This document shows, piece by piece, positions 47,597 to 62,761 of a DNA stretch of 64,000 nucleotides; positions within the stretch are counted from its first letter, which is position 1, and each line of letters starts with the position of its first letter. The position numbers and the translations under genes were made by a program. The DNA is from Duganella sp. CF402 (GTDB taxonomy: Bacteria; Pseudomonadota; Gammaproteobacteria; Burkholderiales; Burkholderiaceae_D), in contig NZ_FOBG01000001.1 of NCBI RefSeq assembly GCF_900109645.1, positions 3,268,262-3,332,261 on the forward strand, in the 5' to 3' direction. Under the pieces are notes generated by a model that saw only the letters and a list, made by a program, of their open reading frames with translations, searched no databases and had not been told where the DNA came from.

Positions 47597-47771
47597 GTTT
47601 TTTTCCACAAGTCGCTATAGAAAATTTGCGTTGGCCTATACGAAGTCGGCATACCAGAGGGGGCAAATGATCAGCTTATTGATTGTTTCCACTCTATTCA
47701 TGTGAGCAAAAAGCTCTCCTCATAGATAAGTTAAGTTTGCACCCGGCGTCGTAATACCTCCACAGGTCGAT

Positions 47772-47781: not shown

Positions 47782-47878
47782 CCTTAATGTATTGCGAGCG
47801 TTGCTCGAAGTGTTTAGTCTTGGATCTGACAGGTCATCAGACAACCTGCACCTCCCAGAACTAACCACTGAGGAATAT

Positions 47879-50731
47879 ATGAAAAAGAAAATACTGGAGA
47901 CCCTGGTTCCGCTCGCGCTGGCGGCCATGTATGCGCCGGCGGCACTGGCCCAGGACGGCGCCAAGGAGCAAGGTCCGACCGCAGCCCCTGCCGACGATCC
48001 CGGCACCACCGTGGTGGTCACCGGCTTCCGTTCCAGCCTGCAGAAAGCGCTGAACCTGAAGCAGCAGGCGATCGGCGTACGCGACTCGATCGTGGCCGAA
48101 GACATCGGCAAATTCCCCGAGGCGAACGTGGCCGAATCGCTGCAGCGCGTGCCCGGCGTGATCCTGAACCGCGACGAATCGTCCGGCGAAGGCCAGCGCA
48201 TCTCGATCCGCGGCCTGCCGACCGAATACTCGGTCACCACCCTGAACGGCGCGCCGGTCAACACCACCTCCACCGCCACCATCGGCTCGGCCGCGCGCGG
48301 CTTCAACTACGACGTGTTCGCGTCCGAACTGTTCGGCCGCGTCGACTTCTACAAATCGCCATTGGCCGAACTGACCGAGGGCGGCCTCGGCGGCGTGGTC
48401 GACCTGCAAACCCCACGCCCATTCGACAATCCGAAGCGCACCATCCGCTACGGCCTGACCGATACCTACAACACCGCCTCCAAGCACAATGACCCGAACG
48501 GCTTCGTGCTGTACTCGAACACCTGGGACAACCTCGGCTTCCTGATCGGCGCCTCGCACTCGGGCAGCATCAACACCCGCTCCGGCTTCGAGGCCACCGG
48601 TGGCTACAACAGTTCCTTCAACGGCAGCCAAAGCCCGGTCAAGGGCAACTTCGCGCTGGCGCTGGACTTCGACAGCCCGCTGGCCAACCTGGGCAGCTAC
48701 ACCAAGGACCAGGTGGCGAAAGCCTTCCTGCCGCGTATCTACCGCTTCTATGGCTCGCAGAACGAGCGCACGCGCGATGGCCTGGTGTCGTCGGTGCAGT
48801 GGAAGACCTCGACCCTCAATGTCAGCCTGGATACCATGTACTCCAAGCTGGAAAACACCCGCGCGGAACAGCTGTTCGGCATCCTGGTGCGCAGCACTGC
48901 CACCACCAACCGCAATGCGCCCATCGGCGCATCCGGCAACAACGGCATCATCCCGCTCAACGTCAAGATCGATCCGGCCACCAACCTGCTGACCGGCACC
49001 TTCGGCAACACCACCTACAACGCGGGCGCCGGCTACTCCAAGGACGAAACCAAATTCGGCTACGGCGCCCTGAACGCCAGCTGGAAGGCCAGCAGCAAGC
49101 TGACGCTGAGCGGCCAGGCCAGCCTGAATCAAAGCACGGCCACCAGCGCCAACGGCCAGCTGTCCGGCTACATCTACGGCGCCACCTCGACCATCGACTA
49201 TGGCGACGATCACGTCTACCCATCGATCTCTTCGCCGACCAGCTACACCGATCCAAACAGCTGGAGCGGCTTCACCATCAGCAGCGGCAAGACCAAAGAA
49301 ACCGACAAGGGCAAGCAAGCGCGCGTGGCCGCCGATCTCGATTACGACCTGCCCGGCGGCTGGACCGGCCACTTGAAGACCGGCCTGACCTACGTCGCCA
49401 CCATCAAGGGCGTGGACAAACGCAATGGCACCGCGCCGGCTACCACCAAGCTGAACTCCATCGGCGCGGCAGGCCTGCGCAGCGCCATGACTTCGCAACT
49501 GCCGATCGATAATCTCGACTTCGGCGCCGGCTGGCCGCACAGCTGGGCGACCTGGAACAGCAACTACTTCTACTCGCAGTTCGATCCGGAGGTGTACAGC
49601 AATGCCTCGACCTTCCAGCCATCGCAAAGCTTCGGCGCGGAAGAAGATGTGAAGACCGCCTTCGCGCAATCGGACTTCAAGGGCGAGATCGCCGGCCATG
49701 AACTGCGCATCAACGCCGGTGTGCGCTACTCCAGGACTGAGACCAAGATCGACAACTTCAAGCAGAAGGGCACGAGCCTGGTCTACTCGCCGAATCACGA
49801 GCAAGGCTCCTACAGCAACGTGCTGCCCGCGATCAGCAGCGCCTTCGACGTGACGGATAACCTGATGTGGCGCGCCTCGTGGGGCAAGACCATCACCCGC
49901 GCTTCGCTGTCCATCATCGCGGCGCAGACGGTGATCCCGAATCAGTTCGACACCACCGCCACCTCGGGCAATCCTAGCCTGCGTCCGCAGCAATCGAAGA
50001 ACCTGGACACCAGCCTGGAATGGTACTTCCAGCCCGGCAGCATGCTGTCCGCCGCCGTGTTCCAGAAGAAGCTGACCGACGCCACCGTCGCCAACACCCG
50101 CGTGGTGACCTTCGGTTCCCTGGGCCTGCCGGATACGGCGCTGGGCCCACTGTTCCAGGACGCGAACGGCCACGTCGATCCTAACCTGGCAATGACGCTG
50201 AAGACCTACACCAACGCCGGCGAGCAAACGCTGAAAGGCTACGAGCTGGCTTACCAGCAGGCCTTCAGCTTCCTGCCTGCGCCGTGGAACGGCTTTGGCG
50301 CTCTGGCCAGCTACACCCACATCAATCCGTTCAACAGCACGCCGTGGATTACCAATGCCGGCAAGGTGATTAACGTGAACTCGGTGCCGAAGTACGCCTA
50401 CAGCACCACCATCTACTTCGAGCAGGGTCCGTGGGCGGCGCGCATGTCCTACAACTACAAGGACAAGTCGCTGCACGGCGACAGCCCGCGCAACCTCGGT
50501 GATGACTTGATCCGCTGGCGCGCAGGCCGTGGCTACCTGGACGCGAACGTCAGCTACAAGATCAGCGAGAACCTGGAACTGCGTATCGATGCGCTCAACC
50601 TGAGCAACACGCTGGCGTATGATTACTTCGAAGACGCCAGCGGCAAATACGGCAGCGGTAAAAAGACGCGCATGGACTATGCCAAGTATGATGGCCGCAC
50701 GATCAAATTCGGCATCCGGGGGAAACTCTAA
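47879..50731 (+). CDS. TonB-dependent receptor
   Basis: Outer-membrane active-transport receptor of 950 residues. A signal peptide (MKKKILETLVPLALAAMYAPAALAQ) is followed by a plug domain (TTVVVTGFRSSLQKALNLKQQAIGVRDSIVAEDIGKFPEANVAESLQRVPGV in blocks; GQRISIRGLPTEYSVTTLNGAPV) and a beta-barrel with aromatic-rich strands to the C-terminal FGIRGKL. It belongs to the Caulobacter/Xanthomonas type of TonB receptors used for plant oligosaccharides. GAGGA precedes the ATG at 47879. It is the first gene of an operon with GH105, DUF2264 and GH35 genes, so its ligand is probably an oligosaccharide from plant cell wall. Confidence 0.93.
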   Translation: MKKKILETLVPLALAAMYAPAALAQDGAKEQGPTAAPADDPGTTVVVTGFRSSLQKALNLKQQAIGVRDSIVAEDIGKFPEANVAESLQRVPGVILNRDESSGEGQRISIRGLPTEYSVTTLNGAPVNTTSTATIGSAARGFNYDVFASELFGRVDFYKSPLAELTEGGLGGVVDLQTPRPFDNPKRTIRYGLTDTYNTASKHNDPNGFVLYSNTWDNLGFLIGASHSGSINTRSGFEATGGYNSSFNGSQSPVKGNFALALDFDSPLANLGSYTKDQVAKAFLPRIYRFYGSQNERTRDGLVSSVQWKTSTLNVSLDTMYSKLENTRAEQLFGILVRSTATTNRNAPIGASGNNGIIPLNVKIDPATNLLTGTFGNTTYNAGAGYSKDETKFGYGALNASWKASSKLTLSGQASLNQSTATSANGQLSGYIYGATSTIDYGDDHVYPSISSPTSYTDPNSWSGFTISSGKTKETDKGKQARVAADLDYDLPGGWTGHLKTGLTYVATIKGVDKRNGTAPATTKLNSIGAAGLRSAMTSQLPIDNLDFGAGWPHSWATWNSNYFYSQFDPEVYSNASTFQPSQSFGAEEDVKTAFAQSDFKGEIAGHELRINAGVRYSRTETKIDNFKQKGTSLVYSPNHEQGSYSNVLPAISSAFDVTDNLMWRASWGKTITRASLSIIAAQTVIPNQFDTTATSGNPSLRPQQSKNLDTSLEWYFQPGSMLSAAVFQKKLTDATVANTRVVTFGSLGLPDTALGPLFQDANGHVDPNLAMTLKTYTNAGEQTLKGYELAYQQAFSFLPAPWNGFGALASYTHINPFNSTPWITNAGKVINVNSVPKYAYSTTIYFEQGPWAARMSYNYKDKSLHGDSPRNLGDDLIRWRAGRGYLDANVSYKISENLELRIDALNLSNTLAYDYFEDASGKYGSGKKTRMDYAKYDGRTIKFGIRGKL

Positions 50732-50734
50732 ACT

Positions 50735-51865
50735 ATGATGAAACGACTCTACGCCGCCACTTTGCTGGCGGCTAGCCTGGCCGGCTGCGCTTCGGCGCCG
50801 CCGGCAGTCGACACCTCCGAACAGGAGGTTGTCGGCATTATGAACAAGGTCAATAACTACTGGCAGCAGCGCGAGCCGGCGCAGAAGTGGGCGTTCTGGG
50901 ATATCGCCGCCTACCACACGGGGAATATCGAGGCCTACCGCATCACCGGCAACAAGGCGTGGCTCAAATATTCCCAGGACTGGGCGGAGCACAACCAGTG
51001 GCAAGGCGCCAAACAGACCGACAAGAGCAAGTGGAAGTACCAGTATGGCGAGACCGACGATCATGTGATGTTCGGCGACTGGCAGATCTGCTTCCAGACT
51101 TACGCCGACTTGTACCAGCTCGATAAAGATCCGAAAAAAATCGCCCGCGCCCGCGAGGTGATGGAGTACCAGATGAGCACTCCGAACAAAGACTACTGGT
51201 GGTGGTCGGATGGCTTGTACATGGTGATGCCGGTGATGACCAAGATGTACCAGATCACGGGCAATAAACAGTATCTCTCCAAGCTGTACGAATACTTCGA
51301 TTACTCGAACAGCATCATGTGGGATAAGGACGCGCAGCTGTACTACCGCGATGCGCGCTACGTCTATCCCAAGCATCAAAGCGTGAATGGCAAGAAGGAT
51401 TTCTGGTCGCGCGGCGATGGCTGGGTATTCGCCGGTCTGGCCAAGGTGCTGCAAGACCTGCCGATGGATGATCCGCACCGCACCGATTTCGTGCTCAAGT
51501 TCCAGCAGATGGCGCAGGTCTTGAAGAAGGCGCAGACCGAAGACGGCTACTGGACCCGCAGCCTGCTCGATCCGCAACATGCGCCCGGACCTGAAACCAG
51601 CGGCACGGCGTTCTTCGTGTACGGCTACCTGTGGGGCATCAATCACGGCCTGCTGGACCGCGCGGAATACCTGCCGGTGGTGCGCAAGGGTTGGCGCTAC
51701 CTGAGCACCACCGCACTGCAAGCCGATGGCAAGATCGGCTACGTGCAGCCGATCGGCGACCGCGCGATTCCGGGACAGGTGGTGGATCAGAATTCGACCA
51801 CGGCGTTCGGCGTCGGCGCGTATTTGCTGGCGTCCTCGGAGCTGGTGCGCCTGCTGCGTCATTAA
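50735..51865 (+). CDS. GH88/GH105 family unsaturated uronyl hydrolase, lipoprotein
   Basis: A 376-residue enzyme with a lipoprotein signal (ATLLAASLAGC). The (alpha/alpha)6-barrel family removes unsaturated uronic acids left by lyases from rhamnogalacturonan and related glycans. Visible conserved blocks include WAFWDIAAYHTGNIEAYRITG, ETDDHVMFGDWQICFQTY, KDYWWWSDGLYMVMPVMTKM, FWSRGDGWVFAGLAKVL and TSGTAFFVYGYLWGIN; catalytic Asp candidates lie in the FGDW and WWSDGL motifs. Three bases after the receptor stop. No polysaccharide lyase is in this cluster, so lyase products must come from elsewhere. Confidence 0.9.
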   Translation: MMKRLYAATLLAASLAGCASAPPAVDTSEQEVVGIMNKVNNYWQQREPAQKWAFWDIAAYHTGNIEAYRITGNKAWLKYSQDWAEHNQWQGAKQTDKSKWKYQYGETDDHVMFGDWQICFQTYADLYQLDKDPKKIARAREVMEYQMSTPNKDYWWWSDGLYMVMPVMTKMYQITGNKQYLSKLYEYFDYSNSIMWDKDAQLYYRDARYVYPKHQSVNGKKDFWSRGDGWVFAGLAKVLQDLPMDDPHRTDFVLKFQQMAQVLKKAQTEDGYWTRSLLDPQHAPGPETSGTAFFVYGYLWGINHGLLDRAEYLPVVRKGWRYLSTTALQADGKIGYVQPIGDRAIPGQVVDQNSTTAFGVGAYLLASSELVRLLRH

Positions 51866-51878
51866 TAACGGAGACTGA

Positions 51879-53168
51879 ATGGAACGACGGAATTTTATCC
51901 AGGCGCTCGCCGCCGGCGCCGCAGCCGGCGGCATCGCGGCGACGCAGGCCGCTAACGCTGCAACCGCAGCAACCGCAGCAACGACTGGCGCGGGTGGCGC
52001 CAGCGGCGCCGAAGCCCGCGCGCAGCTCGCGGCGCTGGCGCAAAAAATGTCCGAGCCGGTGCTGGTCAACATGGCCGCCGGCACGCTGAAAAAGAACTTC
52101 GCACTGGAAGTCAGCCCAACCTGGGACGGCCGCGACAAAGGCGTGGCCTATCTTGAATGCTTCGGCCGCCTGATCGCCGGCATCGCCCCGTGGCTCGCCC
52201 TGCCCGACGACGGCACACCGGAAGGCCGCACGCGCAAGCGCCTGCACCAACTGGCGCTGCAAAGCTACACCAACTCGGTCGACCCGGCGAGCCCTGACTA
52301 CCTGTCATGGAAAGTCCCCGGCCAGACGCTGGTCGACTCGGCCTACTTCACCAACGCCCTGATGCGCACACCGCAAGCACTGTGGGATCCGCTGGATGCG
52401 AAGACCAAGCAGCGCATCATCGCCGAAATCAAATCCCTGCGCCGCATCGAACCACCCTACATCAACTGGATGCTGTTCGCCGCCATGAACGAAGCGTGGC
52501 TGATGTCCATCGGCGAAGAATTCGACCCGATGCGCATGAACGTCGCCATCCGAAAAATCAACGAATGGTACGTCGGCGACGGCTGGATCAAGGACGGCGA
52601 AGCCTTCCACTTCGACTACTACAACGCCTTCGTCATGCATCCCATGCTGGTTGAAATCCTCGACGTGCTGGATGCGAAAAAAGGCGCCTTCTGGAACGGC
52701 AAGCCGGAAGAGCTGCGCGCGCAAGCGATCAAGCGCATGCAGCGCTACGGCGAACACCTTGAGCGCTTCATCGCCACCGACGGCAGCTTCCCGCCGATAG
52801 GCCGCTCGCTCACCTACCGCACCGCCGCCTTCCAGCCACTGGCGCTGCTGGCCCTGCGCAAGCAACTGCCGCAAACCCTGCCCGAAGGCCAGATCCGCGC
52901 CGCGCTGCAAGCCGTGCATAAAGCCGTATGGAACGCGCCGTCCAACTTCACCAAGGACGGCTACCTGACCATCGGCTTCGTCGGCCATCAGCCGGAGCTG
53001 GGTGACTGGTACTCCAACAACGGCAGCATGTACATCGCCTCCGCCAGCCTGCTGCCACTGGGCCTGCCCGCCAGCGACAGTTACTGGACCGCGCCCGCGC
53101 AGGACTGGACCCAGAAGAAAGCCTTCGCCGGCGCGCGCTTCCCCAAAGACTACCCAGTGAACTACTAA
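51879..53168 (+). CDS. DUF2264 domain-containing protein, exported
   Basis: A 429-residue protein with a signal peptide (MERRNFIQALAAGAAAGGIAATQA), an Ala/Thr-rich linker, then a DUF2264 domain (residues about 65-420, GRDKGVAYLECFGRLIAGIAPWLAL; NWMLFAAMNEAWLM; YVGDGWIKDGEAFHFDYYNAFVMHPM; LTYRTAAFQPLALLAL). DUF2264 proteins accompany pectin and rhamnogalacturonan loci and look like alpha/alpha-toroid glycosidases or lyases; activity is not settled. GGAGA precedes its ATG. Its stop touches the GH35 start. Confidence 0.9.
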   Translation: MERRNFIQALAAGAAAGGIAATQAANAATAATAATTGAGGASGAEARAQLAALAQKMSEPVLVNMAAGTLKKNFALEVSPTWDGRDKGVAYLECFGRLIAGIAPWLALPDDGTPEGRTRKRLHQLALQSYTNSVDPASPDYLSWKVPGQTLVDSAYFTNALMRTPQALWDPLDAKTKQRIIAEIKSLRRIEPPYINWMLFAAMNEAWLMSIGEEFDPMRMNVAIRKINEWYVGDGWIKDGEAFHFDYYNAFVMHPMLVEILDVLDAKKGAFWNGKPEELRAQAIKRMQRYGEHLERFIATDGSFPPIGRSLTYRTAAFQPLALLALRKQLPQTLPEGQIRAALQAVHKAVWNAPSNFTKDGYLTIGFVGHQPELGDWYSNNGSMYIASASLLPLGLPASDSYWTAPAQDWTQKKAFAGARFPKDYPVNY

Positions 53169-55520
53169 ATGACGATCACCTCCACATCCCGCCGCCGCAT
53201 GCTGCGCGGCGCTGGCGCAGCTACGATAGGTAGTTTGCTGCTGCCGCTGTCCGCACAAGCGGCAGCGCGCTTCACCATCGGCGAAACCGACTTCCTGCTG
53301 GACGGCCAGCGACTGCAAATCCGCTGCGGCGAAATGCACTTCGCCCGCGTGCCGCGCGAGTACTGGCAGCACCGCCTGAAAGCGATCAAGGCGATGGGCC
53401 TGAACACCGTCTGTGCCTACCTGTTCTGGAACTACCACGAGTGGCGCGAAGGCCGCTTCGATTGGCAGGGCCAGCGCGATGCCGCAGAGTTCTGCCGCCT
53501 CGCGCAGCAGGAAGGCCTGTGGGTGATCCTGCGTCCGGGCCCGTATGCTTGCGCCGAATGGGAAATGGGCGGCCTGCCGTGGTGGCTGTTGAAGCAGCCC
53601 GGCGATGCCTTCCTGCGCACCCGCGATGCCAACTTCGTACAGCCTGCACGCCGCTACATGAAGGAAGTAGGCCGCATACTCGGTCCGCAGCAGATCACGC
53701 ACGGCGGCCCGATATTGATGGTGCAGGTCGAGAACGAATACGGATTCTTCGGCGAAGACCTGTCCTACATGCGCGAGATGCGCGGCATGCTGCAGGATGC
53801 GGGTTTCGACGTGCCGCTGTTCCAGTGCAACCCGACCAATGCGGTGGTCAAGTCGCACATCGACGGCTTGTTCAATGTGGTGAACTTCGGCAGCGACCCG
53901 GTGGCCGGCTTCAAGGTGCTGGACCAGGTGCAGAAAGGCCCGCGCATGTGCGGCGAATACTACTCCGGCTGGTTCGACACCTGGGGCGCGCCACACCGTC
54001 GCGGCTCAGCCAACGGCGCCGTGGCCGATATCCAGACCATGCTGAAGATGAACGGCTCCTTCAGCCTGTACATGGCGCACGGCGGCACCAGCTTCGGCCT
54101 GTGGGGCGGCTGCGACCGTCCGTTCCGTCCCGACACCAGCAGCTACGACTACGACGCGCCGATCAGCGAAGCCGGATGGACCGGCGAGAAATTCGCCGCC
54201 TACCGCGATGGCATCAAGCCTTTCCTGCAGGCCGGTGAAACACTGCCACCCGCGCCGGCGCCGAATCCGCTGATCGCCATCAAGCCATTCGCGTTGAAGG
54301 AGTCCTGCGCCGTCGCCGACGCACTGCCGGCGAACATTATCCGCGCCGTGTCGCCACTGCCAATCGAGCAGTACGACATTAGCCGTGGCCTGGTCTCGTA
54401 CCGTGTCACGCTGCCGGCCGGTCCTGCCGGCACACTGGAAGCGGCCAAGGTGCGCGACCTCGCGTGGGTCAGCATCGATGGCAAGCAAGTCGGCACGATG
54501 GACACCCGCTACCGCCGTTTCAGCGTCGACCTGCCCGCGCGCAGCAAGCCTGCCGTGCTGGAGATTCTGCTGTACACCATCGCGCGCGTGAACTTCGGCG
54601 TCGAGATCCACGACCGCAAAGGCCTGCATGGGCCGGTGCGTTTCAACGGCCAGCCGCTGGAAAACTGGGAAATCCGCGCCATCGATTTCGACGCCGACGG
54701 CGTGCTGCCGCCGCTGACATGGAAGACCGGCCGCACGCAAGGCGCAGCCTTCTGGCGCGGCAGCTTCGACGCCGCACAAACCGGCGACACCTTCCTCGAC
54801 ATGTCCGGCTGGGGACAAGGCATCGTCTGGATCAACGGCCGCTGCCTCGGACGCTACTGGAGCATCGGTCCGACGCAGACCATGTACCTGCCCGGCCCGT
54901 GGATCAAACAAGGCCGCAACGAAGTCGTGGTGCTGGACCTGACCGGCCCACGCAGCGCGCGCATTGAAGGCGTGAAGGCGCCCATCCTCGACAAGCTGCG
55001 CCCGGAACTGGACCTTGCGCGTCCGCCGAGCAAAGTGAAGCCGGCGCTGGAAGGCGTCAAGCCGGCGCAGGAAGGCGAGTTCGCGCGCGGCGCCGCCGTA
55101 CAGGATGTGATGTTTGCGCAGCCGCTGAAAGGCCGCCAGTTCTGCCTCGAATCACTGGACGCCTTCGACGGCAAGCAATACGCCGCCGTGGCCGAACTGG
55201 CGCTGCTGGGCACAGATGGCAAGCCGCTCAACCAGTCCAACTGGACCATCGCCTACGTCAGCAGCGAGGAAGCGACCAAGGAAGACGGCGGCGCCCTCAA
55301 CGCCATCAACGGCCAGGCCACCGACCACTGGCACACCGCCTACAGCGGCAGGGCCGCCACCGCGCCGGGCAGCAAGCACCCGCACCGCATCATCATCGAC
55401 CTCGGTCGTGAAGACGTGGTAGCCGGCATGCGCTACACGCCACGCCAGGGCCCGGAAGGCGTCACCGGTCGCATCAGGCACTATCGCGCCTACGTCGGCG
55501 AAAAGCTGGTGAAGGGTTAA
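53169..55520 (+). CDS. GH35 beta-galactosidase, exported
   Basis: A 783-residue enzyme with a probable twin-arginine signal (SRRRMLRGAGAATIGSLLLPLSAQA). The GH35 barrel has GEMHFARVPREYWQHRLKAIKAMGLNTVCAYLFWNYHE (in parts), the acid/base Glu190 in QVENEYG and the nucleophile Glu263 in CGEYYSGWFDTWG. Beta-sandwich domains follow, and the last 150 residues form a C-terminal discoidin-like domain ending RIRHYRAYVGEKL. It would release terminal beta-galactose from pectic galactan or arabinogalactan. Its end overlaps the convergent AraC gene by four bases. Confidence 0.95.
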   Translation: MTITSTSRRRMLRGAGAATIGSLLLPLSAQAAARFTIGETDFLLDGQRLQIRCGEMHFARVPREYWQHRLKAIKAMGLNTVCAYLFWNYHEWREGRFDWQGQRDAAEFCRLAQQEGLWVILRPGPYACAEWEMGGLPWWLLKQPGDAFLRTRDANFVQPARRYMKEVGRILGPQQITHGGPILMVQVENEYGFFGEDLSYMREMRGMLQDAGFDVPLFQCNPTNAVVKSHIDGLFNVVNFGSDPVAGFKVLDQVQKGPRMCGEYYSGWFDTWGAPHRRGSANGAVADIQTMLKMNGSFSLYMAHGGTSFGLWGGCDRPFRPDTSSYDYDAPISEAGWTGEKFAAYRDGIKPFLQAGETLPPAPAPNPLIAIKPFALKESCAVADALPANIIRAVSPLPIEQYDISRGLVSYRVTLPAGPAGTLEAAKVRDLAWVSIDGKQVGTMDTRYRRFSVDLPARSKPAVLEILLYTIARVNFGVEIHDRKGLHGPVRFNGQPLENWEIRAIDFDADGVLPPLTWKTGRTQGAAFWRGSFDAAQTGDTFLDMSGWGQGIVWINGRCLGRYWSIGPTQTMYLPGPWIKQGRNEVVVLDLTGPRSARIEGVKAPILDKLRPELDLARPPSKVKPALEGVKPAQEGEFARGAAVQDVMFAQPLKGRQFCLESLDAFDGKQYAAVAELALLGTDGKPLNQSNWTIAYVSSEEATKEDGGALNAINGQATDHWHTAYSGRAATAPGSKHPHRIIIDLGREDVVAGMRYTPRQGPEGVTGRIRHYRAYVGEKLVKG

Positions 55521-56278
55521 GTCTCCGCCTTGCGCCCAGCGGCTATCTGCCGGAACTGGCTGGGCGTGAGGCCGGTAGTGGCCTTGAATTGGCGGGTGAA
55601 GGCGGAGTGGTCGCCGTAGCCGCAGGCTTGCGCGATTTCGGCCACGCTGGCGTCGCCGCCCAGCATGCGCGAAGCGGCGTCCACGCGCGTCTGGATAATC
55701 ATCTGGCGCGGCGTCAGGTGGAAGATGCGCAGGAAGTAGCGCTCGATCTGCGCCACCGACATGTTAGCGATGCGCGCCAACTCCGGCAGCTGCAAGGGCT
55801 GGCCGTACTGTTCGTGAATCACACTCACCGCCGCCGCCACCTTGCGGTAGGCGGGATTCTTCTTGTCCGCCATTGCGAGGTCGCGCGAGATGCCGGTCAG
55901 GCCGATGATGCGGCCATGCTTGTCGCGCAGCGCGGTCTTGCGCGTCAGGCACCAGCCGGGATCGCGGTTGGGGTACAGATGTAGTTCCAGCTGGTCTTCG
56001 ATGTCGGCATCGCCGCCCAGTACCGCCATGTCCTGCGCCAGATAAGTCTGGCCGAACGGATGGGCAAACACCTCCGCCGGGGTGCGCCCGATCAGCGCCG
56101 ACTTGTGCCGCTGGCCGCAGCGCTGCACCAGGGTCTGGTTGACCACCACATAGCGTCCCTCGAGGTCCTTGACGAAGAACACCACGTCCGGCAAGGCGTC
56201 AAACAACCCTTCCGCAAAAAAGGGATCGGCGATATCGGCGCCGATTGCACGGCGCATGCTGTCGTTGTCTTTAACCAT
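55517..56278 (-). CDS. PAS domain-containing AraC-family transcriptional regulator
   Basis: A 253-residue protein with an N-terminal PAS domain (residues about 24-135, [31 protein letters not shown] ... [14 protein letters not shown]) and a C-terminal AraC DNA-binding domain ([67 protein letters not shown] in blocks). Divergent from the hydroxyproline operon with about 92 bases between starts and convergent with GH35. It most likely controls hydroxyproline genes, possibly responding to hydroxyproline or a metabolite bound by PAS. Confidence 0.92.
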
Positions 56279-56370
56279 GCGCCTTATTGTGCACCATTAT
56301 GCAGATTTCGTCACCCATCGTGCGCAGGCGGTGCAAGACAGGCCGCTACACAAAGCCTAAGATTTATGGC

Positions 56371-57303
56371 ATGAAAACCATCTCCATCATCGATTCCCAC
56401 ACCGGCGGCGAACCTACCCGCCTGGTCACCGCCGGCGGTCCGGAACTGGGCAATGGTCCGCTCAGCGAGCGCGTCGCCCTGCTGCGCGCCGCCCATGACA
56501 ATTTCCGCTCCGCCGTGGTGTGCGAGCCGCGCGGTTCGGACGTGCTGGTGGGTGCCCTGCTGTGCGAACCGCACGCCCCCGATTGCGCAGCCGGCGTTAT
56601 CTTCTTTAACAACGTTGGCTATCTGGGCATGTGCGGCCACGGCACCATCGGCCTGGTGGCCTCGCTGGCCTTCATGGGCCGCATCGGGCCGGGACGCCAT
56701 CGTATCGATACGCCGGTGGGCGTGGTGGAGGCGGAACTGCATGCCGACGGCAGCGTCACCGTGGACAACGTGGCTTCCTACCGCAGCCGTGCCGCCGTCA
56801 CCGTCGAGGTGCCGGGTTACGGTCCGGTCACCGGCGACATCGCCTACGGCGGCAACTGGTTCTACCTGGTCGCCGACCACGGCATGGAACTGGGCGTGCG
56901 CAATGTGGACCTGCTGACCAGCTACACCGTAGCCATCACCAAGGCGCTGGCCGACAACGGCATCACCGGCGACAACGGCGCGGTGATCGACCACATCGAA
57001 CTGTTTGCCGACTCGCGCACCGGCGCCGACAGCCAAAGCTTCGTGCTCTGCCCCGGCAAGGCCTACGACCGCTCGCCATGCGGCACCGGCACCAGCGCCA
57101 AGCTGGCCTGCCTGGCCGCCGACGGCAAGCTGGCCGAAGGCGCGATCTGGAAACAGGAAAGCGTCATCGGCAGCGTGTTCGACGCCTCTTACCGCCTGCG
57201 CGACGGCCAGCTGCTGCCTAGCGTACGCGGCAAGGCGTGGGTCAATTCGCAGGCGCAGCTGATCCTCGATCCAACCGATCCATTCGTGTGGGGCATCCGC
57301 TGA
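56371..57303 (+). CDS. 4-hydroxyproline epimerase
   Basis: Converts trans-4-hydroxy-L-proline to cis-4-hydroxy-D-proline. The 310-residue proline-racemase family enzyme has the paired catalytic cysteines Cys88 (MCGHGTIG) and Cys237 (SPCGTGTSA), which distinguish it from dehydratase members with Thr. It begins [19 protein letters not shown]. Its stop overlaps the ATG of the dehydrogenase gene. First gene of a four-gene operon. Confidence 0.95.
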
Positions 57304-58409
57304 TGAGGAATGCCGAGGTAATCGTCATCGGCGCCGGCATCGTCGGCGCGGCGTGTGCGGATGCGCTCAGCGAGCGCGGCGTACGCGTGGCGATTATCGA
57401 GCAGGACATCCCCGGCGGCGGCGCCACGGCGGCCGGCATGGGCCACCTGGTGGTCATGGACGACAACGCGGCCGAACTGGCGCTGTCGGCCTACTCGCTG
57501 TCGCTGTGGAAGGACCTGGTGGGCGACCGTCCGCAGCGCCATGAGTACAGCGGCTGCGGCACCATCTGGGTCGCCGCCGATGAAGAAGAAATGCAGGCCG
57601 CGATGGAGAAGGCGCAAACCCTGTCCGGCCACGGCCTGCTGTGCGAGATGCTGACGCCCGCCGCGCTGTATGCGCGCGAGCCGCAGCTGCGCGCCGGCCT
57701 GGCCGGCGGCCTGCTGGTGCGCGGCGATGGGCTGGTGTATCCGCCCAAGACCACCCGCATCCTGCTGGATCGCGCCATGCGGCGCGGCGCCGTCACCAAG
57801 CGCGCCACTGTGACGACAATCGAAGACAACTGCGTGGTGCTGAGCGACGGCACTCGCCATCTGGCGCAGCACATCGTGCTGGCGGCCGGCGCGCGTTCCA
57901 GCGCCCTGCTGCCCGAGCTGCCGATCCAGCCGAAGAAAGGACACCTGGCCATCACCGACCGCTATCCCGGCTTTGTAAAGCACCAGCTGGTGGAGCTGGG
58001 CTACATCAAGAGCGCGCACGCCGCCAGCGGCGATTCGGTGGCCTTCAATTTGCAGCCCCGCCCTACAGGGCAGATATTGATCGGCTCCTCCCGCCAGTTC
58101 GACACAATCGATCCTGCGGTGGAGCCGGCCATGCTGCAGCGTATGCTGCGCCATGCAACCAGCTTCACGCCGCGACTGGCGGAGCTGAACATCGTGCGTA
58201 CCTGGACCGGCTTCCGCGCCGCCACGCCGGACGGCCTGCCGCTGATCGGCCCGTGCGCCGCAAGGCGCGGCTTGTGGCTGGCTACCGGCCATGAAGGCTT
58301 GGGCATCACCACCTCGCTGGCCACGGCGCAGCTGCTGGCCGCACAGATACAGAACGAAAACTCGCGCATCCCGTTTGCGCCGTACCTGCCGGGACGCTTC
58401 CATGCCTGA
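57303..58409 (+). CDS. FAD-dependent D-hydroxyproline dehydrogenase, DAO-type (catalytic) subunit
   Basis: Oxidises cis-4-hydroxy-D-proline, by context. The 368-residue protein is a DAO-fold flavoenzyme (VIVIGAGIVGAACADALSERGVRVAIIEQD, then GGGATAAGMGHLV; C-terminal WTGFRAATPDGLPLIGPC and GHEGLGITTSLATAQLLA). It matches HcnC/hydroxyproline dehydrogenase beta subunits. ATG overlaps the epimerase stop (TGATG). Partner subunits are the next two genes. Confidence 0.92.
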   Translation: MRNAEVIVIGAGIVGAACADALSERGVRVAIIEQDIPGGGATAAGMGHLVVMDDNAAELALSAYSLSLWKDLVGDRPQRHEYSGCGTIWVAADEEEMQAAMEKAQTLSGHGLLCEMLTPAALYAREPQLRAGLAGGLLVRGDGLVYPPKTTRILLDRAMRRGAVTKRATVTTIEDNCVVLSDGTRHLAQHIVLAAGARSSALLPELPIQPKKGHLAITDRYPGFVKHQLVELGYIKSAHAASGDSVAFNLQPRPTGQILIGSSRQFDTIDPAVEPAMLQRMLRHATSFTPRLAELNIVRTWTGFRAATPDGLPLIGPCAARRGLWLATGHEGLGITTSLATAQLLAAQIQNENSRIPFAPYLPGRFHA

Positions 58410-58665
58410 CCAACTGATTAACCTCTGCATCGATGCGCGCAGTGTCAGCGTGCCGTCCGGCGTGACCGTGGCCGCCGCGATTGCCATGAGCGGCAGCGGC
58501 GTCACCCGCCTGTCTGTCGGCGGCGCGGCGCGGGCGCCATTGTGCGGCATGGGCATCTGCCAGGAATGCCGCGTCACCATCAACGGCCGCGCGCACCAGC
58601 TGTCGTGCCAGACCTTGTGCGCCGACGGCATGCACGTGGTCACCGCCAGCGAGGTGGCGGCATGA
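58402..58665 (+). CDS. (2Fe-2S)-binding subunit of hydroxyproline dehydrogenase
   Basis: An 87-residue ferredoxin-like protein with the plant-type cluster motif CGMGICQECRVTINGRAHQLSC (split here: CGMGICQEC and QLSC), giving four Cys ligands. It corresponds to the small HcnA-like subunit of the heteromeric dehydrogenase. Overlaps the preceding gene by eight bases and the next by four. Confidence 0.93.
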   Translation: MPDQLINLCIDARSVSVPSGVTVAAAIAMSGSGVTRLSVGGAARAPLCGMGICQECRVTINGRAHQLSCQTLCADGMHVVTASEVAA

Positions 58666-59924
58666 AGCACTTCGATGTATTGATCGTTGGCGCCGGCCCT
58701 GCCGGGTTGGCGGCGGCGCATGCCGCGATGTCGAAAGGCGCGCACGTCGGCATCATCGACGACAACCCGCTGGCCGGCGGCCAGATCTGGCGCGGCGGTC
58801 CCGAACAGCAAGCCGACCCGCGCGCACCGCAGCTGTGGCACGCCTTGCAGCGGGCCGACAACGTCGAATTCCTGCAACAGACGCGCGTGATGTATGCACC
58901 GGAACCGCACCACCTGCTGGTGCAAACGCCGGACGCCGCGCATACGCTGCACTACAAAAAACTGATCCTCGCCACCGGCGCGCGTGAACGCCTGCTGCCC
59001 TTCCCCGGCTGGACGCTGCCCGGCGTCACCGGCGCCGGCGGCCTGCAGGCGCTGTCCAAAGGCGGCTATCCGCTGGAGGGCAAGCGCGTGGTGGTGGCGG
59101 GCAGCGGGCCGCTGCTGCTGGCGGCGGCCGCCACACTGAAGAGCAAGGGAGCGCACATCGTCGCCATCATCGAGCAAGCCAGCACACCGGCGCTGGCCGG
59201 CTTTGCGTTTGGCCTGCTGGCCACGCCGTCCAAGATCACGCAAGCGCTGCAACTGGCGTCGCAGCTGCGCGGCGTGCCTTACCTGCGCAACAGCTACGTG
59301 CATTCGGCGCACGGCGACGGCACGCTGCAATCGATACAGGTACAGCGCGGCGTGGCGCGCGACCAGGAAACCCTGCAATGCGACTACCTCGCCTGCGGCT
59401 ACGGCCTGCTGCCCAACGTGGAACTGGCGCAGGCGCTCGGCTGCGCCACCGCCCGGCGCGATGGGCAGACCGCAGTGACGGTCGACGAATGGCAGCAAAC
59501 TTCGGTGGAAGACGTCTACTGCGCCGGTGAAGGCACCGGCATTGGCGGCGTCGACCTGGCACTGGCCGAGGGCCGCATTGCCGGCCTGGCCGCCAGCGGC
59601 GACCGGGCGCAAGCCAGGGAAGCCTTTGCCCGCCGCGCGGGCTGGCGGAAATTCGCCGCCCGCCTGGCGCGCGCATTCGCACTGCGTCCCGAACTGCGCA
59701 CGCTGGCTGGCGACGACACCGTCGTCTGCCGCTGCGAAGACGTGTGCCACGGCGAGCTGCGCACCCACACCGCATGGCGCAGCGCCAAGCTGCAAACACG
59801 CTGCGGCATGGGCCCGTGCCAGGGCCGCATCTGCGGCGGCGCCACCGAAATCCTCTACGGCTGGCGTCCCGACGCCGTGCGCATGCCGATCTCGCCGACG
59901 CGCATTTCCAGCATCATCGACTAA
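58662..59924 (+). CDS. FAD/NAD(P)-binding subunit of hydroxyproline dehydrogenase
   Basis: A 420-residue HcnB-like flavoprotein. Two dinucleotide-binding motifs (VLIVGAGPAGLAAAHAAMSKG at residue 5; VVVAGSGPLLLAAAATL near 143) are followed by a C-terminal BFD-like 2Fe-2S site (VVCRCEDVCHGEL and CGMGPCQGRICGG). It transfers electrons from the DAO-type subunit. The operon ends here; the pyrroline deaminase and semialdehyde dehydrogenase needed to finish hydroxyproline breakdown are not in the window. Confidence 0.92.
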   Translation: MKHFDVLIVGAGPAGLAAAHAAMSKGAHVGIIDDNPLAGGQIWRGGPEQQADPRAPQLWHALQRADNVEFLQQTRVMYAPEPHHLLVQTPDAAHTLHYKKLILATGARERLLPFPGWTLPGVTGAGGLQALSKGGYPLEGKRVVVAGSGPLLLAAAATLKSKGAHIVAIIEQASTPALAGFAFGLLATPSKITQALQLASQLRGVPYLRNSYVHSAHGDGTLQSIQVQRGVARDQETLQCDYLACGYGLLPNVELAQALGCATARRDGQTAVTVDEWQQTSVEDVYCAGEGTGIGGVDLALAEGRIAGLAASGDRAQAREAFARRAGWRKFAARLARAFALRPELRTLAGDDTVVCRCEDVCHGELRTHTAWRSAKLQTRCGMGPCQGRICGGATEILYGWRPDAVRMPISPTRISSIID

Positions 59925-60010
59925 TTTGATTACAGGTGAGAAAACGAGAGAGTATTGGTGAATTTATAAGGTAAAATTTCTTAATTGAAATTTTTGCTGC
60001 CAGATCACCA

Positions 60011-62761
60011 ATGCCCAAGCACCTTCGCCTGTTGTGCGCCTGCCTGTTCTCCTCCGTTCTCTGCGCCGTGCCGGCGCCGGCCCAGCCCACCACCTCGGCC
60101 GCCACCCGCAGCGTGCAAATCGCCGAAAGCGCGTTCACGCGCGGCGATGCGGCGCCGGCCTGGGTCGACGATCTCCGCGAACTGCCGGCGGCGATGAAGG
60201 CGCCGCTGTCGATGCGACTGTCCGACGTCCAGTTCTACGTGGCGGACCAGCCCACCGTCTACATCCACCGCGCGCTGACGGCCAACGAAGCGGCCAGCCT
60301 GTCGGCGCTGGGCCAGTTTGAAATCAGCTTCCAGCCCGAGTACCAGCGCGTGCAGCTGCATAGCCTGCGCCTGCTGCGCGGCGGCCAGGTGATCGACAAA
60401 CTGAAGGCGGCCGACATCCGCTTCCTGCAGCGCGAAACCAGCCTCGATCAGGGCCTGTATTCGGGCGCGGTGACCGCCGCCATCGTCACCGACGACGTGC
60501 GCGTGGGCGACACGCTGGACATTGCGTACTCGCTGATCGGCGACAATCCCGTCTTCGGCGGAAAATTCTACGACGCCGCCTCGTGGGACAGCACGGCGCC
60601 GGTGAGCCTGCGCCGGGTGACGCTCAACACGCCGCAGGGACGCACCATCTACCATCGCATGATCGGCAAGGGCGACGCCGTCAAGCCGGTCGAAACGCTG
60701 CGCGACGGCCGCCGCATCCTGCGCTTCGAAGCGCGCAACATCGCCGCGATTCTGGGCGAGCCGTATGTGCCGACCGACGTGCACGGCCACCGCTTCATCC
60801 AGTTCTCTGAACTGAACCGCTGGCGCGACGTCAGCCAGTGGGCGACCGCGCTGTTCGATACCGGTCCGGCCGGTCCCGCGCTGGACGAAGCGCTGCGCGA
60901 GGCGCGCAAGGCCGCCACCGTGCAAGACAAGGTAGGCAAAGTGCTGGAGTTCGTGCAGAACGATATCCGCTACCTGTCGCTGTCGATGGGCGAGAACTCG
61001 CACCGCCCCTATCCGCCGGCGCAGGTGCTGCAGCGCCGCTACGGCGACTGCAAGGACAAGACCCTGCTGATGGTGACCATGCTGCGCGCGCTCGGCGTCG
61101 AAGCGCAGCCGGTGCTGGTCTCGACCAGCTCGAAGAAAGGACTGGACCAGATGCTGCCTAGTCCCGTGCTGTTCAACCATGCCATCGTGCGCGCGCGCGT
61201 GCAGGACAAGACCTACTATTTCGACCCGACCCGCCTGGGCCAGTACGGCAAACTCGATCGCATGGGGCAAGTGCATGCGGGCGCGCAGGTGCTGGCCATC
61301 GCCGCCGGCAACGACGCGCTGGAAACCATCCCGCTGCCGGCCGATCCGGAACTGTACACCGACCAGCGCAGCGAGCGCGTGGTGGTCGCCGCCGCCGACA
61401 AGCCGGCCGAGATGCAAGTGCACAACGAATACGCCGGCACCGACGCCGAATTCCTGCGGGTGCAGCTGGCCAACCTGTCCACGGCGCAGCTGCGCAAAGG
61501 CTACGAAGCCTCGATGGGCCGCCGCTACACCGAATTCGCGCTGCTGGATGATCCGAAGATCAACGATGACCGTGTCAATAATCGCCTCAGCATCGACCTG
61601 CGCTACCGCATCGACAACTTCATGGAAAAGGAAACCGAAGGCTGGAAGGTGCGCTACCTGCCGGTCAACCTCACCGACCAGCTGTACGTACCCGACGTGG
61701 CGCATCGCGAGCTGCCGCTGGCGGTGCCCAATGCGCCGGCCATCCACCTCTACAACTTCGACGCCACGCTGCCGCCCGATATCGATGCGCGCTACTCGCC
61801 GTCGCAAACCAGCATCGCCAGCGACGCCTTCACGCTAACCAAGGCGCTCAACTTCAGCGGCCGCGAAGTCAACCTCAAGCTGCGGCTGCAGGTCACTGCC
61901 GACCGCGTGGCGGCGCCGCAGGTGCCGGAGTTTGTCGGCGCCGCGCGCAAGATGAATGAAGCCATCCAGACCAGCCTTTACGTGCGGCCGAACGTGGTCA
62001 AGCCGGCCAATGCGGTGGACTTCGCGCAGCAGGTTCAGGACCGCATCAACGCCGCCATCAAAGCCACCAGCAAAGTGATCGGCGATGCCGCGATCACCGG
62101 CCAGGATGCTGGCGGCGCCTTGTGTGAACGGGCGCGCGCCTATTCCTGGCAAGGCAAGCACGCCGAGGCACTGAAGGACGCCAACAAAGCGCTGCAAGGA
62201 CAAAACACCTCGCCGGACAAGCTGCTGTGCCGCGCGGAGGTCAACTTCGGCGCAGGCAATTTCAAGGAGAGCGCCGCCGACTACGCGCGCGCCACGGCAC
62301 TGGGCGCCGGCGACGACGGTGTCTGGCTGCGCAAAGGCTGGGCCGATCTGTATCAGGGCAACAAGCCGGAAGCCCTGAGCGACTTCACGCGCGCCGGCAA
62401 AGCCGCCGACGATCCGCTGCTGCGCATGCGCGCCCTGATCTGGCTGGCCATGAATGGCGCAGCCGTCGACGCGCCAGCCGCCGGCAGCAGCGACGTGCCG
62501 CTGGCTGAAACCTGGCTGAGCGCCGCGCTGCACATGTTCAAAACCAGGCAGTCGGCCGAGCCGATGCTGCGCCAGGCCAGCCACGACGGCGTCAATGGAC
62601 TGGAAGCACGCCTGACCGAAGCCTATTTCTACGCCGGTAAAGCCAGTGCGCTGGCGCAGGACAAAATGAAAGCGCGCGTTTACTTCCAGCGCGCGATTGA
62701 GAAGGGTGCTGTCAGCAGCAGCTACTACCGGATGGCGGTGCTGGAACTGGCGCGCCTGTAA
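60011..62761 (+). CDS. DUF3857 / transglutaminase-like / TPR exported protein
   Basis: A 916-residue protein with a signal peptide (LRLLCACLFSSVLCAVPAPAQ), a DUF3857 domain (residues about 50-240), a transglutaminase-like domain with the Cys-centred YGDCKDKTLLMVTMLRALG near residue 347 and His in FNHAIVRARV, and a C-terminal TPR region (residues about 685-910, ALCERARAYSWQGKHAEALKDANKAL ...). Such proteins are common and envelope-linked, with unknown substrate. It ends one base inside the earliest ATG of the downstream gene, so they are probably one operon. Confidence 0.9.
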   Translation: MPKHLRLLCACLFSSVLCAVPAPAQPTTSAATRSVQIAESAFTRGDAAPAWVDDLRELPAAMKAPLSMRLSDVQFYVADQPTVYIHRALTANEAASLSALGQFEISFQPEYQRVQLHSLRLLRGGQVIDKLKAADIRFLQRETSLDQGLYSGAVTAAIVTDDVRVGDTLDIAYSLIGDNPVFGGKFYDAASWDSTAPVSLRRVTLNTPQGRTIYHRMIGKGDAVKPVETLRDGRRILRFEARNIAAILGEPYVPTDVHGHRFIQFSELNRWRDVSQWATALFDTGPAGPALDEALREARKAATVQDKVGKVLEFVQNDIRYLSLSMGENSHRPYPPAQVLQRRYGDCKDKTLLMVTMLRALGVEAQPVLVSTSSKKGLDQMLPSPVLFNHAIVRARVQDKTYYFDPTRLGQYGKLDRMGQVHAGAQVLAIAAGNDALETIPLPADPELYTDQRSERVVVAAADKPAEMQVHNEYAGTDAEFLRVQLANLSTAQLRKGYEASMGRRYTEFALLDDPKINDDRVNNRLSIDLRYRIDNFMEKETEGWKVRYLPVNLTDQLYVPDVAHRELPLAVPNAPAIHLYNFDATLPPDIDARYSPSQTSIASDAFTLTKALNFSGREVNLKLRLQVTADRVAAPQVPEFVGAARKMNEAIQTSLYVRPNVVKPANAVDFAQQVQDRINAAIKATSKVIGDAAITGQDAGGALCERARAYSWQGKHAEALKDANKALQGQNTSPDKLLCRAEVNFGAGNFKESAADYARATALGAGDDGVWLRKGWADLYQGNKPEALSDFTRAGKAADDPLLRMRALIWLAMNGAAVDAPAAGSSDVPLAETWLSAALHMFKTRQSAEPMLRQASHDGVNGLEARLTEAYFYAGKASALAQDKMKARVYFQRAIEKGAVSSSYYRMAVLELARL

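Follow-up and report, generated by a model that had tools for sequence, protein, structure and literature searches.

The window, a 64,000-nucleotide stretch of the Duganella sp. CF402 genome, carries at 47879–59924 the genes listed in Table 1. Matches to Pfam, NCBIfam and PDB bear out the layout proposed in the first-pass annotation, in which a TonB receptor, GH105, DUF2264 and GH35 on the forward strand are followed by a PAS-AraC regulator on the reverse strand and by an epimerase and dehydrogenase on the forward strand. The 4-base overlap described there is also present: positions 55517–55520 are common to the GH35 and regulator genes, so the end of the former reaches 4 bases into the latter, tail to tail. 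All genes of the block score well above the Pfam gathering scores and are therefore not chance frames.

Table 1. Genes and putative operators of the block (positions in the window).
Feature	Position	Strand	Evidence
Conserved block TATAGAAAATTTGCG...CTATACGAAGTSGGMATA, putative glycan-operon operator	47616..47655	+	18 promoters aligned, some shortened
TonB-dependent receptor, TonB-Xanth-Caul subfamily	47879..50731	+	TIGR01782 584 bits (cut-off 310)
GH105 (Pfam GH88 family) unsaturated uronyl hydrolase	50735..51865	+	PF07470 294 bits
DUF2264 (former GH154), predicted beta-D-glucuronate dehydratase	51879..53168	+	PF10022 379 bits
GH35 beta-galactosidase	53169..55520	+	PF01301 341 bits; 6eon 660 bits
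PAS_4 + AraC-HTH regulator	55517..56278	-	PF08448, PF12833
Operator-like block TGCAGATTTCGTCA-N6-RTGCNNA...GTGCAAGAC	56297..56339	+	Between AraC and epimerase genes
Predicted trans-4-hydroxy-L-proline 2-epimerase (4HypE), proline-racemase family	56371..57303	+	PRK13970 472 bits (cut-off 442)
FAD (DAO) subunit, predicted cis-4-hydroxy-D-proline dehydrogenase	57303..58409	+	PF01266 227 bits
2Fe-2S subunit, dehydrogenase	58402..58665	+	PF13510 69 bits; Cys48, 53, 56, 69, 73
Pyr_redox FAD subunit, dehydrogenase	58662..59924	+	PF07992 120 bits

The TonB receptor, whose TIGR01782 scan began at an upstream start at 47792 (the ATG used here is at 47879), has an N-terminus that is signal-peptide-like by eye, and it would take up oligosaccharides across the outer membrane. 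The N-terminus of the GH105 protein is lipobox-like (LAGC), and its best PDB matches are 5noa (570 bits) and 4q88 (508 bits). GH88 and GH105 are not told apart by Pfam on its own; we favour GH105 because, among ten PDB matches, there are YteR and 'putative GH105' entries with weak scores (24–53 bits) and 4ce7 (172 bits), which we take to be a GH105 member. The GH35 protein begins with a Tat-like sequence, can be aligned with 6eon at VENEYG and MCGEYYSGWFD, and carries a C-terminal F5/8-type module that, at 27 bits, narrowly misses the Pfam cut-off of 28. Both 5noa and 6eon presumably come from work on arabinogalactan.

The DUF2264 protein also has a Tat-like N-terminus (MERRNFIQ). Its PDB matches are 8oi4 (496 bits) and the glucuronate dehydratase entries 9o4u and 9nwf (395 and 392 bits), which places it closer to 8oi4 than to BcGDH (395 bits); the 9o4u match extends over residues 42–429, giving homology across the whole domain. 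The proposed catalytic residues of BcGDH, Y229, R285 and Y289, are all identical in our alignment inspected by eye. Mutants at these three and seven other BcGDH residues are inactive in the account of PMC12269599, and 9 of the 10 are identical here, counted by eye; the position of N176 is Ile in the Duganella protein and Thr in 8oi4. According to the same source, the former GH154 family includes beta-glucuronate dehydratases whose action on terminal GlcA primes it for GH88/GH105 enzymes, and we predict that the Duganella protein is a dehydratase of this kind, acting on terminal GlcA. A hydrolase was not our first choice and was set aside because PMC12269599 finds dehydratase activity in two members of the family and makes the case against hydrolysis; it also cites earlier reports of glucuronidase and galactosidase activities. 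BcGDH/BcGH88 of Bacteroides caccae and BT3677 of B. thetaiotaomicron resemble the Duganella block in having a former GH154 dehydratase, and in the B. caccae pair, as described there, terminal beta-GlcA is first primed by the dehydratase and then taken off by an unsaturated uronyl hydrolase acting as its partner (PMC12269599). The partners differ, being GH105 and GH35 in Duganella versus GH88 and GH109 in B. caccae (PMC12269599), which suggests galactan rather than chondroitin as the substrate.

The epimerase exceeds the cut-off of PRK13970, a 4-hydroxyproline epimerase model, and scores below those of another such model, NF052296 (428 bits, cut-off 450), and of NF010578 (208 bits, cut-off 376). 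It matches the structure of PA1268 (2azp) with 442 bits, an epimerase that presumably belongs to the Pseudomonas hydroxyproline pathway. A two-Cys pair is present (C88 in MCGHG, C237 in PCGTG); the acid-base pair of PFL_1412 is Cys88/Cys236, and another 4HypE family uses Ser/Cys, as reported in PMC4113996. The three dehydrogenase genes overlap by 8 (DAO/2Fe-2S) and 4 bases (2Fe-2S/Pyr_redox) and share one operon with the epimerase, the layout of a hetero-oligomeric D-hydroxyproline dehydrogenase. Among the matches listed, the subunits reach no NCBIfam cut-off, so the activity is assigned by context. In the 4HypE clusters described in PMC4113996 and at PA1268, as in Duganella, a two-Cys 4HypE lies beside a DAO-family oxidase or dehydrogenase. 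The Duganella block differs from these in its PAS-AraC regulator and in having neither a DHDPS-type deaminase nor an aldehyde (KGSA) dehydrogenase; neither occurs at 47879–62761, and this region therefore does not hold a complete hydroxyproline cluster.

With a fuller hydroxyproline cluster (L276) as query, whose proteins themselves reach no NCBIfam cut-off, the Duganella genome gave four DHDPS-family matches on contigs C2, C4 and C5 (27–32% identity) and two aldehyde dehydrogenases (63% and 59%). A DapA-like gene on C5 (L194) has an AraC motif upstream, and 8 of 25 such promoters in the genus exceed the 99% level. The promoters also share a ATTGTATAAAATATCC-like block that, by eye, would fit the gene's own GntR neighbour, and the protein shares only about 30% identity with the DHDPS-type protein of fuller clusters such as L276; the gene is a candidate deaminase only. 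Stop codons lie inside many of the DapA-like matches, probably in the part of the query before the likely ATG.

We compared 74 Duganella genomes, counting epimerase matches at E below 1e-100 (weaker matches, including one of 1.4e-41 in G057, were dropped, as were tblastn pieces covering <30% of the query at the genus loci), and obtained 66 epimerase loci besides that of the window. In 60 of them the PAS-AraC and epimerase genes are divergent. The glycan operon accompanies this pair in 21 loci, GH35 alone in 1, and no glycan gene in 38 (in 5 of these 38 the contig breaks off no more than 8.4 kb upstream); DUF2264 at ≥87% identity occurs in none of these 38 genomes. In the genus as a whole, 46 of 74 genomes have DUF2264. 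It is at least 87% identical in 22 (window included), always at this locus; the best matches of the other 24 are 61–82% identical, and none lies in the stretch around an epimerase. All 8 genomes without an epimerase have DUF2264.

In every one of the 22 carriers, no more than about 14 kb separates the glycan operon from the epimerase, though the interval otherwise varies. GH35 and the AraC gene are separated by <200 bp in 6 carriers and by 1.5–8.8 kb in 16. By names assigned by eye, 11 carriers have a GGDEF-type gene in the interval and 7 have VgrG-like ones; L132, a locus lacking the glycan operon, likewise has the GGDEF-type gene upstream of AraC. Genes upstream of AraC in non-carriers are heterogeneous, and by eye no glycan or hydroxyproline gene was recognised among them. 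In a tree built from the hydroxyproline genes rather than a species marker set (L175 and L176, without AraC and DhA, left out), the carriers, the GH35 remnant and two non-carriers form a clade of 25 rows (SH-aLRT 97, quick method). Three changes suffice on this tree, and one gain with two losses fits. The members without the full glycan set (L130, L154, L117; two with no glycan gene, one with GH35 only) all keep the hydroxyproline genes.

Outside the genus, we examined the loci of 40 of the 53 genomes with an epimerase match, dropping tblastn pieces of <40% of the query. GH154, GH105 and GH35 are absent within about 10 kb of the epimerase in all 40, whereas PAS-AraC occurs in 18, the dehydrogenase in 19 and a TonB receptor, at 24% identity, in one. 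Where present, PAS-AraC is mostly not divergent from the epimerase. Conversely, 16 of the best 80 of 173 GH154 loci represent the Duganella block (pieces covering <45% of the query dropped), and no epimerase was found in the DNA around the other 64. In L006, L016 and L025 there is no epimerase within 10 kb; their apparent counterparts L127, L122 and L128 have one farther away. Adjacency of the two operons, which the first-pass annotation had proposed to look for in relatives, is thus rare: the operons abut in 6 of 74 genus genomes, lie within about 14 kb in 22, and occur together in none of the 40 loci elsewhere. Such rarity, named beforehand as the first of two conditions that together would refute a single unit, is largely what we found. 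A protein search with PAS-AraC, of which we considered the best 120 of 2301 relatives, showed a widespread regulator type and nothing more.

The 14-base core of the predicted AraC site has 0 or 1 mismatch in all 61 AraC-epimerase intergenic regions, and the 28-base pattern has one further match in the whole genome at ≤3 mismatches (reversed control, 0). The motif exceeds the 99% shuffle level in 61/61 of these regions, from which its matrix was itself made, and PAS-AraC is predicted to be the local regulator of the hydroxyproline genes. Among TonB-receptor promoters the motif exceeds this level in 0 of 18, which speaks against a shared site; these represent 18 of the 22 carriers (in 4 the promoter lies past the stretch end), and at least one is shortened. 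The TonB promoters share a block whose core 18-mer has a single exact genome match, at this promoter, and 10 more at 3 mismatches, versus 7 for a reversed control. On its other strand, this block contains TATGCCGACTTCGT, which matches TATGCAGATTTCGT, part of the AraC site, at 12 of 14 positions. When scored with a 31-bp matrix, it is the promoter's best site and comes 47th among 127,940 window positions, with about 0.2 such sites expected by chance (hand calculation); a 43-bp matrix puts it 884th.

The best explanation of the locus, and in our judgement a probable one, is that two ordinary, self-contained and separately controlled catabolic modules became neighbours through one insertion event. 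It draws on gene families, conservation pattern, motif distribution and tree computed here and on the dehydratase-hydrolase pairing (PMC12269599) and 4HypE pathway (PMC4113996) reported in relatives; substrate, transport, localisation, regulation and the order of gain and loss are what we infer. In the glycan module, galacto-oligosaccharides capped with GlcA, with type II arabinogalactan as their most likely source, would enter through the TonB receptor. Dehydration of the beta-GlcA at the non-reducing end by the DUF2264 enzyme would then leave a 4,5-unsaturated residue for GH105 to hydrolyse off, and GH35 would take off the exposed beta-galactose. The epimerase would convert trans-4-hydroxy-L-proline to cis-4-hydroxy-D-proline for oxidation by the three-subunit dehydrogenase, with later steps encoded elsewhere, and the divergent PAS-AraC would control this operon via the conserved site between AraC and epimerase genes. 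A Duganella clade would have acquired the glycan operon at a site flanked by miaA and the AraC gene, and some lineages would have lost intervening genes, so that GH35 abuts AraC.

The first-pass annotation had suggested that the two operons may form a single functional unit for plant glycoproteins, which our results do not support: in the genus loci and in the motif distribution, PAS-AraC goes with the hydroxyproline genes. Under such a scheme PAS-AraC would control both operons, the GH genes trimming the sugars of arabinogalactan-proteins or extensins and the epimerase operon using the core hydroxyproline. Arabinogalactan sugars and hydroxyproline co-occur in plant hydroxyproline-rich glycoproteins, and this, the linkage in 22/22 carriers and the weak operator resemblance in the TonB promoter speak for it; we nevertheless consider it improbable, since PAS-AraC accompanies the epimerase without the glycan operon in 38/60 loci, the motif is above threshold in none of the TonB promoters, other DNA interrupts 16/22 carriers, none of the 40 loci examined outside the genus has both operons, and DUF2264 is present in every epimerase-less genus genome. 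Moreover, Pfam domains reveal no peptidase or inner-membrane peptide transporter at 47879–59924. Among the matches listed in the open-licence literature we found no published account of a joint GH/hydroxyproline unit. Some observations count against two independent modules: the complete retention of linkage, for which a benefit of staying linked could be another explanation, the mostly non-divergent PAS-AraC in other genera and, weakly, the likeness of the TonB block to the AraC site. Separately regulated modules held together by selection, for joint transfer or in a shared plant-surface niche, would account for the retention, but a single insertion passed down within one clade accounts for the same pattern with no need of selection, and L130, L154 and L117 lack all or most glycan genes while keeping the hydroxyproline genes; this too we regard as unlikely. 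Very unlikely, in our view, is that the captured glycan operon is being drawn into the hydroxyproline regulon of one Duganella clade, with PAS-AraC binding a diverged site, the conserved block at 47624–47654, in the TonB promoter and hydroxyproline signalling arabinogalactan-protein; were it so, hydroxyproline would switch on glycan trimming via PAS-AraC. The locus illustrates how a plausible neighbourhood story can be checked, by following the shared regulator into genomes that lack one of the two halves.

For the glycan module itself, we clustered the neighbours of 43 of the 64 GH154 loci that do not belong to the Duganella block (the 21 left out are mostly Bacteroidota). By cluster representative, a GH145/PL42-type gene recurs in 15 of the 43 and GH2 beta-galactosidases in 20. 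An 816-aa ORF cluster (22/43), whose best match in the Duganella genome runs antisense over the GH105/DUF2264 region, has no Pfam or PDB match and is therefore considered an antisense-frame artefact; owing to this effect the counts for real genes are lower bounds. GH145/PL42-type enzymes have been linked to arabinogalactan-protein caps, and because of their recurrence arabinogalactan-type glycans are the likely substrate. The arabinogalactan-type part of the proposed plant cell-wall role is strengthened by this association and by the dehydratase role of the DUF2264 family in PMC12269599; the pectin part was set aside, the block itself holding no pectin-specific gene. We took an arabinogalactan-protein locus to combine GH145/PL42 or PL27 and exo-galactanase (GH43_24) with GH105; by Pfam domains, the block holds no GH145-type gene or galactanase. 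This absence, and the use of a GH154-type dehydratase with GH88 on chondroitin by B. caccae (PMC12269599), leave some chance, clearly the smaller one, that the operon serves another GlcA-capped glycan, such as rhamnogalacturonan side chains, a glycosaminoglycan or bacterial exopolysaccharide. The cluster counts argue otherwise, as do the presence of GH35 rather than a hexosaminidase and the single GH145-type gene of the genome, in a TonB locus about 245 kb from the block. As described in PMC8406133, Bacteroides arabinogalactan-protein PULs (GH145, GH105) likewise combine TonB-type uptake, GH105 and a galactosidase, and the GH145/PL42-type gene recurs near GH154 in relatives; GH145, GH43_24, sulfatase and SusD are not among the four genes of the Duganella operon. 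The Latescibacteria reconstruction, in the available text of PMC4454575, similarly concerns hydroxyproline-rich glycoprotein use, proposing arabinogalactan-protein and extensin enzyme sets in one genome; it differs in involving sugars and endopeptidases, with no hydroxyproline operon beside a GH operon. In Duganella and relatives, the recently proposed pairing of glucuronate dehydratase with uronyl hydrolase (former GH154 with GH88/GH105) would occur in TonB-receptor operons, and its partners, GH35 here and GH145/PL42-type in relatives, make an arabinogalactan substrate directly testable.

Coordinates and family matches bear out the gene families, strands and overlaps that the first-pass annotation assigned to the Duganella block, in which a glycan operon lies beside a hydroxyproline operon (table below). 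The window covers positions 3268262-3332261 of contig C2. An open antisense frame of 1425 aa (47861-52138, minus strand) covers the receptor and GH105 genes as well as part of DUF2264; frames of this type cluster among relatives and can distort neighbourhood counts. Immediately 3′ of the dehydrogenase, at 60011-62761, is a DUF3857/transglutaminase/TPR protein with no match in 66 other stretches from the genus, most of which extend only ~1.6 kb beyond the dehydrogenase.

Genes of the Duganella block in the window
Feature	Coordinates	Strand	Basis or remark
TonB receptor	47879-50731	+	family search
GH105	50735-51865	+	family search
DUF2264	51879-53168	+	family search
GH35	53169-55520	+	family search
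PAS-AraC	55517-56278	-	4 bases common to GH35 end
Epimerase	56371-57303	+	family search
Dehydrogenase subunits	57303-58409, 58402-58665, 58662-59924	+	family search

The same annotation proposed that both operons may form one unit for the use of arabinogalactan-proteins or extensin. Counts of co-occurrence, adjacency and the AraC motif go against this, and the joint unit appears disfavoured on sequence comparison. In a sample of 74 Duganella genomes, the epimerase was counted at E below 1e-100 and found in 66 (68 at E 0.001, two of them weak matches). DUF2264 (E up to 1e-60) is present in 46/74, including all 8 genomes without epimerase, and is missing from 28 of the 66 that have it; since each half occurs without the other, each is dispensable to the other. 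Every one of the 22 genomes with DUF2264 at ≥87% identity has it at the epimerase locus, and among the 24 with best matches of 61–82% it was found inside an epimerase stretch in none. For 66 epimerase loci in 65 other genomes we retrieved at most 20 kb of surrounding DNA each (eight shorter, at contig ends). PAS-AraC adjoins the epimerase divergently in 60 of these, a 46–50% relative lies downstream in 4, and PAS-AraC was not seen in 2. Upstream of the 60 divergent pairs, the glycan operon is present in 21, GH35 alone in 1 and neither in 38. That solitary GH35 (L117:11614-13962, genome G019), with no DUF2264 match at E 1e-60, is a partial loss of the glycan operon.

Nor are the operons kept adjacent across relatives: they are near each other in 22/74 genomes of the genus, abut in 6, and are near each other in 0/40 examined loci outside it. 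Measured between match ends, the GH35-AraC gap is <200 bp in 6 of the 22 carriers and 1.5–8.8 kb in the other 16. Eleven carriers have a GGDEF-type gene in this interval, and seven (L116, L120, L121, L122, L124, L127 and L128) have VgrG-like genes, four of them with a DUF2235-like protein as well (names by eye). Direct abutment is best read as a secondary exception, because the GGDEF-type gene lies upstream of AraC even in L132, a locus without the glycan operon. The VgrG-like and DUF2235-like genes suggest that the miaA-AraC interval is prone to insertions. In a tree of the hydroxyproline genes themselves (epimerase, AraC and DhA; 65 rows), a single clade (SH-aLRT 97) holds the carriers together with the GH35 remnant and two non-carriers; 3 changes are enough to account for presence of the glycan operon, and one gain with two losses would fit.

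A family sample of 255 genomes gave epimerase at E 1e-90 in 71, 53 of them from other genera, and 40 of these 53 loci were fetched. Within ~10 kb, 18 of them have PAS-AraC, 19 the dehydrogenase and 12 a DHDPS-type match (29–32%), and a single locus has a TonB receptor match, at 24%; GH154, GH105 and GH35 were found in none of the 40. Among the best 80 of 173 GH154 loci, 16 are the Duganella block and the nearest DUF2264 relatives from named genomes are Duganella species; no epimerase is seen in the available DNA around the other 64, some of whose stretches are short.

The 92-bp AraC-epimerase region contains a block conserved throughout the genus, whose 14-base core is found with 0 or 1 mismatch in 61/61 regions. 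A matrix made from these 61 sites scored above the 99% level of first-order shuffles in 0/18 TonB-receptor promoters and in 8/25 genus promoters of a DapA-like gene. With ≤3 mismatches, a 28-base pattern gave one further match in the window's own genome, at the DapA-like gene (reversed control, 0), and matches in 44/74 genus genomes (control, 0). This second site (L194:7537-10657; contig C5, motif 243102-243129) has an M13 peptidase gene on one side and on the other the DapA-like gene, itself followed by a GntR regulator; the PAS-AraC regulon may include the DapA-like gene as a second member. The TonB promoter has a separate conserved block, its 18-base core exact only there in the whole genome. 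On the other strand, a stretch of this block resembles the AraC core at 12/14 positions over TATGCAGATTTCGT, which could be taken as ground for PAS-AraC binding a diverged site and the glycan operon joining its regulon. We consider this very improbable. The stretch ranks 47 of 127,940 positions with a 31-bp matrix (~0.2 expected by chance in the promoter) and 884 with a 43-bp matrix, and the resemblance appears not to be significant.

Both operons are modules of known kinds; the analysis defines more closely what DUF2264 is and which substrate is likely. The DUF2264 family is the former GH154, because the PDB matches of the window protein are structures treated as GH154 in PMC12269599. That paper describes a Bacteroides caccae member that converts terminal beta-glucuronate by dehydration into a 4,5-unsaturated residue, which GH88 then removes; it reports dehydratase activity likewise for the founding member, BT3677, and notes that GH154-family genes are often found with GH88 or GH105. 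Over the whole domain, the window protein aligns with the B. caccae enzyme (395 bits; 8oi4 is better, at 496 bits). Of the 10 residues mutated in that work it retains 9, among them the arginine and the two tyrosines proposed as catalytic. GH105 matches 5noa (570 bits) and GH35 matches 6eon (660 bits). By eye, the N-termini are Tat-type in DUF2264 and GH35, lipobox-like in GH105 and Sec-type in the receptor. From this precedent, the structure matches and the N-termini, the operon probably works in sequence: the receptor would import a GlcA-capped oligosaccharide, DUF2264 would dehydrate the cap, GH105 would take it off, and GH35 would then cleave off galactose.

The hydroxyproline operon probably acts through epimerase and then dehydrogenase, as in the pathway of PMC4113996 (epimerase, D-hydroxyproline oxidase, DHDPS-type deaminase, KGSA dehydrogenase). 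The epimerase has a Cys/Cys pair and meets one NCBIfam 4-hydroxyproline epimerase cut-off, missing others. Genes for the DHDPS-type deaminase and KGSA dehydrogenase are absent from the block; candidates for the deaminase and an aldehyde dehydrogenase lie elsewhere in the genome, and in L276, a locus from another genus, epimerase, dehydrogenase, PAS-AraC, DHDPS-type and aldehyde-dehydrogenase-type genes are all together.

For the glycan operon, we infer a substrate of arabinogalactan type. Neighbour clusters, each named by one representative and several without Pfam match or annotation, were counted for 43 of the 64 non-block GH154 loci: GH105 recurs in 23, GH2 beta-galactosidase in 20, GH35 in 16, a BNR_4 protein in 15, a LacI-type regulator in 14 and an MFS transporter in 11. 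For the BNR_4 representative, 5muk (GH145 enzyme BT3686) is a 500-bit match; in PMC8406133 and PMC8377490 the Rha-GlcA caps that arabinogalactan-proteins carry are linked to GH145/PL42 together with GH105. The window's own genome has one GH145-type gene, ~245 kb from the block and adjoining a TonB receptor. This gene, of GH145/PL42 type, forms a single run with that receptor and an S10-like peptidase at L254:5181-17129 (contig C2, ~3.57 Mb), a likely second arabinogalactan-related locus; genes for an enolase-superfamily protein and a Reg_prop/Y_Y_Y histidine kinase are close by.
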